A stretch of DNA of 64,000 nt from contig NC_017278.1 of the NCBI RefSeq assembly GCF_000236585.1, positions 1,054,001 to 1,118,000 of the forward strand, in the 5' to 3' direction. The position numbers and the translations under genes were made by a program. Numbering within the stretch: the stretch's first letter is position 1; every line of letters begins with the position of its first letter. A model generated the notes under the pieces. The model was not told where the DNA came from, did not search any database, and saw only the letters and a program-made list of their open reading frames with translations. Positions 16,759 through 20,018 of the stretch are shown here, in pieces. The stretch is from Thermus sp. CCB_US3_UF1 (GTDB taxonomy: Bacteria; Deinococcota; Deinococci; Deinococcales; Thermaceae).

Positions 16759-17160
16759 CTAGGGGTCCTGGGCCTCCTGCAGGGCCTCCAACCAGGCCTG
16801 GGCGCTTTCCGGACCCTCCACCCGGGGGGCCCGTTCCCGGGGGAACCAGGACAGGAGGGGGGTAAGGTCTTCCCCGGCCAGGGCCTCGAGGCTGGGGGCC
16901 AGGAGGAGCTTATGGTCCCCGTCCGCCAGCCAGAGGAGGCCCACCACCAGCCCCTCGGCCTCGGTGCCTGGGGGCAGGGGAGGCCCCAGGAAAACGGCGT
17001 CCACCTCCTCCCCGTCCGCCGGGTTCAGGAGGCCGGGCAGAAGGCCGTAGTTCACCGGGGCCGGCCGGTCCCGCCCCACCTCTAGAAGCCGCCCATCCTT
17101 CCAAGCGAAGCGCACCGGGCTTCCCCGGCTCCATTCCACCACCATGCGCAGCCGCTTCAT
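16759..17160 (-). CDS. degenerate family I inorganic pyrophosphatase-like protein
   Basis: A 133-aa protein that aligns along its length with family I soluble pyrophosphatases but is shorter (E. coli enzyme about 175 aa). Matches include [47 protein letters not shown] and VEGPESAQAWLEA. Of the E. coli acidic triad D65/D67/D70, here the residues read D, E, D; the K29/E31 pair is replaced by R and A, and the tyrosine-lysine near the C-terminus is lost. It may be weakly active or a binding protein. Its ATG overlaps the mgtE stop, so it is coupled to a Mg2+ transporter, the metal that pyrophosphatase uses. Confidence 0.7.
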   Translation of the reverse strand: MKRLRMVVEWSRGSPVRFAWKDGRLLEVGRDRPAPVNYGLLPGLLNPADGEEVDAVFLGPPLPPGTEAEGLVVGLLWLADGDHKLLLAPSLEALAGEDLTPLLSWFPRERAPRVEGPESAQAWLEALQEAQDP

Positions 17161-18506
17161 CCCAGGTTCAGCAGGAACCGGGCCAGGCTCAGGTAGATGA
17201 GGAGGCCCGTTACGTCGGTGAGGGTGGCGATCAGGGGGTTGGAGAGGAGGGCGGGGTCCACCCCCAGGCGGCGAAGGGCGAAGGGGAGGAGGGCCCCCAC
17301 CAGGTTGGCGAAGAGGACGATGAGGAAAAGGGCCAGGCCCACCACCGGTACCAGGTTGGCGTGCCCGTCCAGGGCCACCTTGCCCAGGAGGAGGAGGGCC
17401 AGGGTCAGGCCCAGAAGCAGGCCCACGGCGCTTTCCTTGGAGAGGACCCGCCGCCAGTCCCTAAGGTCCAGGTCCCGGGTGGCCAGGGCGCGGATGATGA
17501 GGGTGGCCGACTGGTTGCCGGTGTTGCCTCCCGTCCCGATAAGCACCGGCACGTAAAAGGCCAGGGCGGTCAGGGCATCCAACAGGCGCTCAAACCCCTG
17601 GAGGATGGAGCTGGTGACCATGCCCGTGAGGATCAGGATCACCAGCCAGCGCACCCGGGCCAGCCACAGGGTCACGGGGGAGGCCTGGCTGTAGACCAGG
17701 TCGGGCACGTCCACGGCGGCCAGGCGGTGGATGTCCTCGGTGGCCTCGGCCTCCAGCACGTCCAGCACGTCGTCCACCGTGACGATGCCCGCCAGCTTCC
17801 CCTCCTCGTCCACCACCGGCAAGACGGTGAAGTCGTAGTCGGCCATGAGGCGGGCCACCTCTTCCTGGTCGGTGTCGGTGCGGACGTAGACCACCTTGGG
17901 GTTCATGATCTCGGCCACCTTGGTCCTGGGGTCGGCCACGATCAGGTCCCGTAGGGAGAGGACCCCCTTGAGGTGGCCCGCCTCGTCCACCACGTAGATG
18001 TAGTAGATGGTTTCCGCGTCGGGGGCGGCCCGGCGCAGGAAGCGGAGGACCTCGTCCACGCTCATGCCTTCCCGCACCGCCACGTACTCCGGGGTCATGA
18101 GGCCGCCCGCCTCGTCCTCCTCGTACTGGGTAAGCTCCTCCACCTCGGCCCGGGTTTCCGGGTCCAGGGCCTCCTTCAGCCGGCGGTAGAGCTCGGGGTC
18201 CTCCTCCTCCACCGCCTGCAGGGCGTCCGCCAGGTCGTCCAGGGAGAGCTCTTCCAGAAGCTCCCGCACCCGCCAAGGAGGCAGGGTTTTCAGGTACTCG
18301 GCCTGCTCCTCCGAGGGCAGGTGGGAGAAGACCTCCGCCGCCCGGTCCTTGGGCAAGAGGGTGAGGACCACGTAGCGGTGCTCCCCCTTGAGCTCGTCCC
18401 AAAGGGCCAGGAGGTCCTGGGGGTGGGCTTCCCCCAGGAGGGTTTTCAGGGCCAGGGTGTCGCCCTCTTCCAGGGCTTGCAGCAGGGGGGAAAGGGCTTT
18501 TTCCAC
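17157..18506 (-). CDS. mgtE: magnesium transporter MgtE
   Basis: A 449-aa MgtE very like the structurally studied T. thermophilus protein. It has an N-terminal superhelical domain (about 1-130), a CBS pair (about 131-255) that senses Mg2+, a plug helix, and five membrane helices (about 275-449) with LIGTGGNTGNQSA and a C-terminal pore aspartate in LTDVTGLLIYL. It is a Mg2+-gated inner-membrane channel. The start is GTG 18506, preceded by AGGAGG. The leader holds a short ORF and two competing helices (separate entries). The downstream gene is coupled to it by an ATGA overlap. Confidence 0.96.
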   Translation of the reverse strand: MEKALSPLLQALEEGDTLALKTLLGEAHPQDLLALWDELKGEHRYVVLTLLPKDRAAEVFSHLPSEEQAEYLKTLPPWRVRELLEELSLDDLADALQAVEEEDPELYRRLKEALDPETRAEVEELTQYEEDEAGGLMTPEYVAVREGMSVDEVLRFLRRAAPDAETIYYIYVVDEAGHLKGVLSLRDLIVADPRTKVAEIMNPKVVYVRTDTDQEEVARLMADYDFTVLPVVDEEGKLAGIVTVDDVLDVLEAEATEDIHRLAAVDVPDLVYSQASPVTLWLARVRWLVILILTGMVTSSILQGFERLLDALTALAFYVPVLIGTGGNTGNQSATLIIRALATRDLDLRDWRRVLSKESAVGLLLGLTLALLLLGKVALDGHANLVPVVGLALFLIVLFANLVGALLPFALRRLGVDPALLSNPLIATLTDVTGLLIYLSLARFLLNLG

Positions 18507-18507
18507 A

Positions 18508-18552
18508 GGCGGCCTCCTTTCCTGCTGAAGGCCGCCTGGTGGCGGCCTTCAG
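18508..18552 (-). promoter_or_regulatory. mgtE leader: mutually exclusive hairpins over the ribosome site
   Basis: In the mRNA, CTGAAGGCCGCC (18552 to 18541) and GGCGGCCTTCAG (18536 to 18525) form a perfect 12-bp stem with a 4-nt loop. The second arm can instead pair over 10 bp with GGAGGCCGCC (18517 to 18508), which contains the mgtE Shine-Dalgarno, leaving a 9-nt loop. The two structures exclude each other. The base pairing is read directly from the sequence; the regulatory role is inferred. Confidence 0.65.
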
Positions 18553-18584
18553 GGCTTGGGACTCGAGGGCAGAGCCTCGCTCAT
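18549..18584 (-). CDS. putative mgtE leader peptide (11 aa)
   Basis: ATG 18584 opens an 11-codon frame MSEALPSSPKP with three prolines, the last being the codon before the stop. The TGA stop (18551-18549) lies inside the first arm of the leader hairpin. The ATG is 9 nt downstream of the TAGGCT -10 box, so it sits at or near the transcript 5' end, similar to the leaderless genes elsewhere in the window. It resembles in concept the proline-containing leader peptides of enterobacterial Mg2+ transporter genes, but shares no sequence that I can claim. Whether it is translated is not known. Confidence 0.5.
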   Translation of the reverse strand: MSEALPSSPKP

Positions 18585-18593
18585 ACCTTCTCC

Positions 18594-18622
18594 AGCCTAG
18601 AGGGCTTCTGCAAGGGCGTCAA
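18594..18622 (-). promoter_or_regulatory. mgtE promoter
   Basis: On the minus strand TTGACG (18622-18617), a 17-bp spacer and TAGGCT (18599-18594) give a well-spaced sigma-A promoter. The expected start near 18587 leaves a leader of about 80 nt before the mgtE GTG. Confidence 0.65.
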
Positions 18623-18655
18623 CCTTGCCCGCTAGAAATGTAGGAAAAATTGAGG

Positions 18656-18685
18656 TTGACATGCTCAAGGGGGGTGGTCTATCCT
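18656..18685 (+). promoter_or_regulatory. ffh operon promoter
   Basis: TTGACA (18656-18661), an 18-bp spacer and TATCCT (18680-18685) precede ffh by 28 nt. The consensus -35 makes this one of the clearest promoters in the window. Confidence 0.7.
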
Positions 18686-18713
18686 GGGGCCTGGCCTTAG
18701 GGGGCCCAAGGGC

Positions 18714-20018
18714 ATGTTCGGACAGCTGGCGGCGAGACTGCAAGAAGCCATCGATCGGCTCCGGGGCCGGGGCCGGATCACCGAGGAGGACCTCAAGGGG
18801 ACCCTGCGGGAGATCCGCCGCGCCCTCATGGACGCGGACGTCAACCTGGAGGTGGCCCGTGCCTTCGTGGAGGGCGTGCGGGAGCGGGCCTTGGACCAGA
18901 AGGTCCTGGAAAGCCTGACCCCCGCCGAGGTGGTCCTGGCCACGGTCTACGAGGCCCTGAAGGAGGCCCTGGGGGGCGAGCCCCGCCAGCCCACCCTGAA
19001 GGAACGCAACCTCTGGTTCCTGGTGGGGCTCCAGGGTTCTGGCAAGACCACCACCGCCGCCAAGCTGGCCCTCCACTACAAGGCCAAGGGGAGGCGGCCC
19101 CTCTTGGTGGCCGCGGACACCCAGCGCCCCGCCGCCCGGGAGCAGCTTCGCATCCTGGGGGAGAAGGTGGGGGTGCCGGTCCTGGAGGTGATGGACGGGG
19201 AAAGCCCGGAGTCCATCCGCCGCCGGGTGGAGGAGCGGGCGCGGCTGGAGGTGCGGGACCTGATCCTGGTGGACACCGCTGGCCGCTTGCAGATCGACGA
19301 GCCCCTCATGGCCGAGCTGGCCCGCCTCAAGGAGGCCATGAACCCCGACGAGGTCCTTCTGGTCCTGGACGCCATGACCGGGCAGGAAGCCTTGGCCGTG
19401 GCCCGGGCCTTTGACGAGCGCGTGGGGGTTACGGGCCTGATCCTCACCAAGCTGGACGGGGATGCCCGGGGCGGGGCGGCCCTTTCCGCCCGGCACGTGA
19501 CGGGGAAGCCCATCTACTTCGCCGGCGTTTCCGAGAAGCCCGAGGGGCTGGAGCCCTTCTACCCCGACCGCCTGGCGGGGCGGATCCTGGGCATGGGGGA
19601 CGTGGCCACCCTGGCGGAAAAGGTGCGGCAGGCGGGCCTCGAGGCCGAAGCCCCCAAGGCGGCCAAGGAGCTCACCCTGGAGGATTTTCTCCGGCAGATG
19701 CAAAGCCTAAAGCGCCTGGGTTCCTTCTCCGAGATCCTGGGCCTGCTCCCCGGGGTGGGTAAGGCCCTCCCCCAGGGGGTGCAGGTGGACGACAAGGCCC
19801 TGAAGCGCCTGGAGGCCATCGTCCTCTCTATGACCCCGGAGGAGCGCAAGGATCCCCGGATCCTCAATGGTTCCCGGCGCAAGCGCATCGCCAAGGGTAG
19901 CGGCACCACGGTCCAGGAGGTCAACCGCCTCATCAAAGCCTTTGAGGAAACCAAGGCCCTGATGAAGTCCCTGGAGAAGCGCAAGGGCCGGGGACTCATG
20001 GGAATGTTTAGGAGGTAG
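18714..20018 (+). CDS. ffh: signal recognition particle protein Ffh (SRP54)
   Basis: A 434-aa SRP GTPase. N domain (1 to about 90), G domain with P-loop GLQGSGKTT (105-113), [18 protein letters not shown] and [10 protein letters not shown], then the M domain (about 295-434) with GLLPG and the RNA-binding [15 protein letters not shown]. It binds 4.5S RNA and targets ribosomes making membrane proteins. It has its own TTGACA-containing promoter. The next gene rpsP follows by 7 nt with a strong AGGAGGT, as in the common ffh-rpsP-rimM-trmD-rplS order. Confidence 0.97.

Follow-up and report, generated by a model that had tools for sequence, protein, structure and literature searches.

Does the short leader in front of mgtE in Thermus control synthesis of the channel and, if so, is the switch operated by a translating ribosome? 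Structurally, a whole channel family is modelled on Thermus MgtE. Our searches of the literature found no report of the leader, or of Thermus mgtE gene regulation, and no Thermus transcription start site map, ribosome profiling or Mg2+-response data. We analysed 64,000 nucleotides of Thermus sp. CCB_US3_UF1 DNA (positions 1,054,001 to 1,118,000 of contig NC_017278.1), referred to below as the window. The mgtE product matches TIGR00400 mgtE with 400.7 bits, which is above the cut-off, and has the Pfam domains MgtE, CBS and MgtE_N. Another protein with an MgtE domain is encoded in the same genome, where the open frame spans 189 aa (G000:C2:239254-239607). We conclude that the leader probably acts in cis through its short ORF to attenuate mgtE translation, and that mgtE output would rise when early elongation is impaired.

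The features of the leader are collected in Table 1. An earlier note on this DNA described a promoter (TTGACG-17-TAGGCT), a near-leaderless ATG that opens the ORF MSEALPSSPKP, a leader stop codon within the first arm of a 12 bp hairpin and a second arm able to pair instead, over 10 bp, with the mgtE Shine-Dalgarno region. All of these elements are present on the minus strand. The loop between arms 2 and 3 is ACCA, and the 10 bp alternative pairing between arms 3 and 4 includes one G-U pair.

Table 1. Features of the mgtE leader, and short ORFs of related ABC operons. Positions refer to the window.
Feature	Position or locus	Strand	Remarks
−35 element, TTGACG	18617..18622	−	sequence; 22 distinct Thermus leaders share TTGAC[G/A] and the 17-nt spacer
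−10 element, TAGGCT (TANNNT type)	18594..18599	−	variants TAGGCT, TACCCT, TAGCCT, TAGCTT, 9–10 nt 5′ of ATG
Leader ORF, MSEALPSSPKP then stop (ATG 18584–18582, TGA 18551–18549), near-leaderless	18549..18584	−	sequence and Thermus alignment
AGT (Ser), codon 8 of leader ORF	18561..18563	−	fixed in every Thermus leader; one of the rarest codons
Possible arm 1, GCCCTCG within leader ORF	18564..18570	−	RNAalifold; weak pairing with arm 2
Arm 2 (first arm, A), CTGAAGGCCGCC	18541..18552	−	holds leader stop codon
Arm 3 (second arm, B), GGCGGCCTTCAG	18525..18536	−	pairs with arm 2 (12 bp) or arm 4 (10 bp)
Arm 4 (C), GGAGGCCGCC	18508..18517	−	includes mgtE Shine-Dalgarno core
mgtE Shine-Dalgarno, AAAGGAGG	18513..18520	−	sequence
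mgtE, Mg2+ channel, 449 aa, GTG start at 18506	17157..18506	−	TIGR00400; Pfam MgtE, CBS, MgtE_N
ABC-operon short ORFs (MEDxGSY..., MESPGSC..., MDNSSSY...)	L231, L232, L238, L240, L241, L251, L254		upstream of permease

The leader ATG is 9 nt downstream of the predicted −10 element. This hexamer is poor, with 3 of 6 consensus positions matched, and the mgtE leader promoter was missed by a promoter scan for this reason. The TTGAC[G/A]-17-TANNNT arrangement is kept in the 22 distinct Thermus leaders parsed; a further three genomes have TTGACA with TACCTT or TACTTT. The spacing of 9–10 nt in the 22 leaders agrees with a leaderless-type layout, where TANNNT lies about 10–12 nt 5′ of the start codon. 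Leaderless mRNAs are a described class in Deinococcus-Thermus, and a near-leaderless ORF is normal for the phylum (PMC3160421). The leader ORF is in frame with mgtE in the window; frames 0, 1 and 2 all occur across the other species. Hence, we rejected the idea that the ORF is an interrupted N-terminal extension of MgtE, or is joined to MgtE by stop codon readthrough. On the plus strand, at 18638–18685, the block GAAAAATTGAGGTTGACA precedes the divergent ffh gene and has its own promoter-like site. Its conservation is strong across Thermus and partial in Oceanithermus-like genomes, and it reaches further upstream than a bare −35 element requires.

High G+C favours long stems, and a hairpin of this kind might have arisen by chance. 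However, mgtE is alone among the 46 window genes in having a stem of at least 12 bp together with an alternative of at least 10 bp over the Shine-Dalgarno sequence. Such an arrangement was reached by none of 1000 dinucleotide shuffles and by 1 of 3000 random 80-mers from the window. The arrangement is also conserved genus-wide, and a chance origin is hardly credible.

The mgtE gene was found in all 27 Thermus genomes. In 26 of these, the leader ORF is kept, with an ATG and 11–13 codons, together with the 12 bp hairpin and an arm that covers the Shine-Dalgarno sequence of mgtE. The earlier note had staked its proposal on conservation of the ORF and of the alternative pairing in related species; both are conserved in all but one of the Thermus genomes. 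Most ORFs have 11 codons, those of the T. parvatiensis type have 12 (MREGPLPSSPER, then stop) and that of the divergent genome G014 has 13 (MREALPSSSGSRP, then stop). Both length changes, indels of +3 and +6, are multiples of three and preserve the frame. The ATG is conserved although neighbouring positions vary. The peptide is variable outside its core (MSEAL, MLGPL, MTGAL, MQGAL, MGERL and others) and the final codon specifies Pro, Arg or Ser. At the nucleotide level, the conserved core is CCC[T/C]CGAGT. The exception is genome G019, where ATG has become ATT and the hairpin is degenerate; CCCTCGAGTCCC is still there and mgtE is retained. In T. parvatiensis-type genomes, the leader element is retained despite unrelated upstream DNA. 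Searching for ATG, the core and GGCCGC in succession returned exactly one mgtE leader per genome, plus one coding-like extra in G016; the plasmid records scanned gave no match. The core CCCTCGAGTCC with one mismatch was discarded as a genome-wide marker, having hundreds of chance matches in coding DNA.

Arms 2 and 3 are 99.7% paired in the alignment, and two pairs have double changes, an outcome reached by 4 of 500 shuffles. Arms 3 and 4 are 99.6% paired, nearly invariant and without covariation. Conservation of the 3:4 pairing extends to CCGCC, between the Shine-Dalgarno sequence and the mgtE start codon. Since Shine-Dalgarno function alone would not fix CCGCC, its conservation counts in favour of the 3:4 pairing. 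RNAalifold placed a possible arm 1 within the ORF, which would give a 1:2, 2:3, 3:4 layout. For 1:2, 90% of cells are paired, there is no covariation and the probability is low in most species; the pairing is strong in G049. Pair counts did not support a separate CGAGG/CCTCG hairpin at the 5′ end of the ORF, which was dropped.

Folding of the window leader at 65 °C gave 2:3 in the free RNA (0.95) and 3:4 with a ribosome at the leader stop codon (0.965). When the ribosome was modelled at the stop in the 24 intact leaders, all formed 3:4, with mean pair probabilities of 0.89–0.98. In the model, then, the OFF step holds firmly, and the claim that a ribosome at the leader stop leads to a state hiding the Shine-Dalgarno sequence is supported as a prediction. 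With no ribosome, 2:3 is dominant in most species, 3:4 prevails in about six (L004, L007, L092, L093, L106 and L108), L096 is balanced and L022 forms neither. Equilibrium folding thus predicts no common resting state across species. With a ribosome modelled at AGU, again at equilibrium, most species still favour 3:4. Hence, the ON state would require co-transcriptional folding, in which arm 3 is captured by arm 2 while arm 4 has yet to be transcribed.

These observations are consistent with the following scheme. Pairing of arm 3 with arm 2 would leave the Shine-Dalgarno sequence free (ON), and pairing with arm 4, which includes that sequence, would switch mgtE OFF. A ribosome reaching the leader stop would mask arm 2, and arm 3 would close over the Shine-Dalgarno sequence. 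If the ribosome pauses or drops off before the stop, or none is present, arm 2 would capture arm 3. The pause would most plausibly occur around the conserved Pro-Ser-Ser(AGU) codons, and mgtE output would increase upon impaired early elongation of the short ORF. We infer that ribosomes translate the leader ORF and that their position on it governs translation of mgtE, with impaired elongation serving as the report of low Mg2+. The signal may be Mg2+, proline or decoding of the Ser codon AGU; the case for Mg2+ is made solely by the downstream gene being mgtE. In one genome (G049), the same leader also occurs before an ABC transporter.

The earlier note named the Pro codons as an example of where the ribosome might stall. 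Pro at codon 6 is invariant among Thermus leaders, but Arg, Leu or Ser can stand in place of Pro at codons 9 and 11. AGT is fixed within the leader ORF in every Thermus genome. It is the rarest sense codon of the window genes (2 of 17,812); across a broader set of Thermus sequences it ranks third rarest, at 0.49 per 1000 against 11.8 for AGC. It occurs 7 times among the 11,594 codons of 25 Thermus mgtE coding sequences, in which just 66 of 274 invariant amino acid columns have an invariant codon. As judged from the alignments, the strongest constraint on the leader ORF is the rare Ser codon AGU, not the prolines, and the emphasis on proline is weakened accordingly. That a single rare codon is conserved, and neither a peptide nor a stretch of prolines, suggests an unusual sensor. 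CCCTCG pairing with arm 2 could account for part of the conservation near AGT; in Meiothermus leaders, the G and U of AGT are inside a predicted helix. For these reasons, codon and structural constraints are not fully separated. Complementarity of the core to 16S rRNA is confined to an 8-base match, CTCGAGGG, with none over the AGT-containing part.

Relatives of Thermus have mgtE short ORFs that differ from the Thermus ORF. These include Meiothermus-type, Calidithermus-like and Marinithermus-like genomes, which are labelled by similarity. The Meiothermus-type leader ORF, MEDHSSSRR..., has its own Shine-Dalgarno sequence in front; further relatives have MEDSSSSRQ... or MEDYSDSRR..., and a Marinithermus-like genome has MEGSSRRR.... 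Meiothermus-type ORFs share a conserved MEDxSxSR with synonymous change, and an in-frame AGT is present in the mgtE short ORFs of all these relatives. In their leaders, the mgtE Shine-Dalgarno sequence is within a 9 bp stem, and six pairs of the whole structure have double changes. Meiothermus-type leaders (L140–L161, 130–180 nt 5′ of mgtE) comprise a conserved, covarying multi-helix RNA around the MEDHSSSRR... ORF, to which no Rfam family matched. A recognisable mgtE short ORF is absent from Oceanithermus-like leaders, from the mgtE of G049 and from two Meiothermus-type genomes (L152 and L157). Outside the Thermaceae, matches to the MED-type ORF pattern were long coding ORFs or lacked a recognisable leader.

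In G049, a Thermus-type leader precedes not mgtE but an ABC transporter operon (L211:988-1062; G049:C39:405987 onward). The ORF, ATG GAG GGC CTG CCC TCG AGT CCC GCA GCC TGA, is followed by the hairpin and AAAGGAGGCCGCCTGTG. The operon encodes a 564-aa double-domain ABC permease and then an ATPase with an AAA_assoc_C domain. This placement suggests that the leader is a portable regulatory module; finding the matching leader at an ABC transporter hints at a common signal and offers a clue to what the transporter does. Meiothermus-type ABC operons have leader ORFs MEDSGSHRL..., MEDAGSYNP..., MEDTGSYSS..., MESPGSCRL... and MDNSSSYRS..., each with an in-frame AGT. Several came from inspection by eye, and some of the list was then collected with an AGT-containing pattern, so AGT content here is subject to selection bias; AGT played no part in choosing the mgtE set. 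These ORFs are followed by a CCTCC...GGAGG hairpin over the Shine-Dalgarno sequence of a second small ORF. In several operons, the end of this second ORF overlaps the start of the permease gene (ATGA). A recognisable leader is missing from most of the ABC operons in Thermus. The only other Thermus ABC leader resembling the mgtE type is L225 (G014, 5′ of the ABC permease), a near-leaderless ORF, MVAVKAERPPSS then stop, with an in-frame AGT. A broader reading, possible but doubtful, is that in-frame AGU is a programmed pause common to the otherwise dissimilar-looking leader ORFs of mgtE and ABC operons across the Thermales, with slow decoding, for instance of a G-U wobble at low Mg2+, picking the hairpin. 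If true, the codon would act as a portable gauge that reads ion supply from translation speed and is independent of the leaders of enterobacteria.

Could the RNA arms act with the ORF irrelevant? In that case, a structured leader, such as a riboswitch, a thermosensor or a protein site, would switch the Shine-Dalgarno sequence directly with Mg2+ or another ligand. Nucleotide-level conservation of CCC[T/C]CGAGT, which is partly able to pair with arm 2, would fit such an element, as would G019, with its core but no ATG, and the extended covarying structure of Meiothermus leaders. However, the ATG is present in 26 of 27 genomes with the frame preserved through both indels, and the Meiothermus-type ORF has a Shine-Dalgarno sequence and synonymous change within MEDxSxSR. 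In addition, the Thermus leader is only ~100 nt, has no Rfam match and lacks conserved ligand-pocket loops. We consider an ORF-independent switch unlikely.

We give similarly little weight to sensing of charged tRNA for Ser (AGU) or Pro, instead of Mg2+. The in-frame AGU, among the rarest codons, recurs in every leader type inspected and Pro codon 6 is invariant; yet the Thermus ORF has a single AGU, not the one-amino-acid run of classical attenuators, and the targets are a Mg2+ channel and an ABC transporter, not Ser or Pro biosynthesis. Constitutive expression, in which the short ORF merely feeds ribosomes to mgtE by reinitiation or coupling, is less probable still. The mgtE start is 40–43 nt away in 11- and 13-codon leaders, and a study of this phylum has put forward reinitiation at leader genes, but with a distance peak near 10–11 bp (PMC4833913). 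Reinitiation also leaves conservation of both alternative pairings, and of a 12 bp hairpin between the ORFs, unexplained. Comparative evidence lends good support to a predicted translational attenuator of the short-ORF class.

The M-box (ykoK) is a Mg2+ aptamer riboswitch on Firmicute mgtE. The target gene family is the same, but the Thermus leader does not match this aptamer: no M-box (RF00380) was listed by a gathering-threshold Rfam scan of loci L003, L014, L015, L012 and L025, nor by a permissive scan of window positions 18300–18900, and no other Rfam family gave a meaningful match at either threshold. The earlier note was therefore right to set the M-box aside. The closest known system is Salmonella mgtQ-mgtB, where 1:2/2:3/3:4 logic has been proven experimentally for a Mg2+ transporter (PMC8092293). 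The 8-codon mgtQ ORF selects between 1:2 plus 3:4 and 2:3, with 3:4 occluding the mgtB ribosome site; a CCC Pro codon lies in arm 1, and acidic codons 2 and 5 are required (PMC8092293). In both leaders, a short ORF overlaps stems that exclude each other, and the Shine-Dalgarno sequence of a Mg2+ transporter gene is hidden in one of these stems; in both, the read-out is translation, not termination, as predicted for Thermus. Hence, the mechanism is not new in kind. The two are unrelated in sequence; mgtQ is intergenic within its operon and serves a P-type ATPase, whereas the Thermus leader is at the 5′ end and serves MgtE. Furthermore, Thermus has a weak arm 1, and what stays fixed there is the rare AGU codon. 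The acidic codons of mgtQ are not conserved in Thermus ORFs (MLGALPSSPRP and MTGALPSSPRP have none), while Meiothermus-type ORFs begin MED. Most likely, the Thermus switch evolved separately from the similar Salmonella ones. An mgtE short-ORF switch in a deep-branching phylum would show that ribosome-based Mg2+ reading arose more than once.

The translation efficiency of short leader ORFs also sets Mg2+ transporter expression at enterobacterial mgtL/mgtA, mgtM-mgtP/mgtCBR and corL/corA (PMC3641672, PMC11552253). The read-outs of the mgtA, mgtC and corA leaders are transcriptional (attenuation or Rho), whereas the Thermus element lacks a long leader or terminator-like U tract. As in trp-type attenuators, the position of the leader-ORF ribosome would select between overlapping hairpins. 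Unlike these, the Thermus ORF has no amino acid codon run, there is no intrinsic terminator (no terminator-like site in 18400–18800) and Shine-Dalgarno sequestration is used instead. Finally, the mgtE motif SRC-65-1, a riboswitch candidate reported only from Thioalkalivibrio (PMC11109978), also has the mgtE Shine-Dalgarno sequence in a stem.
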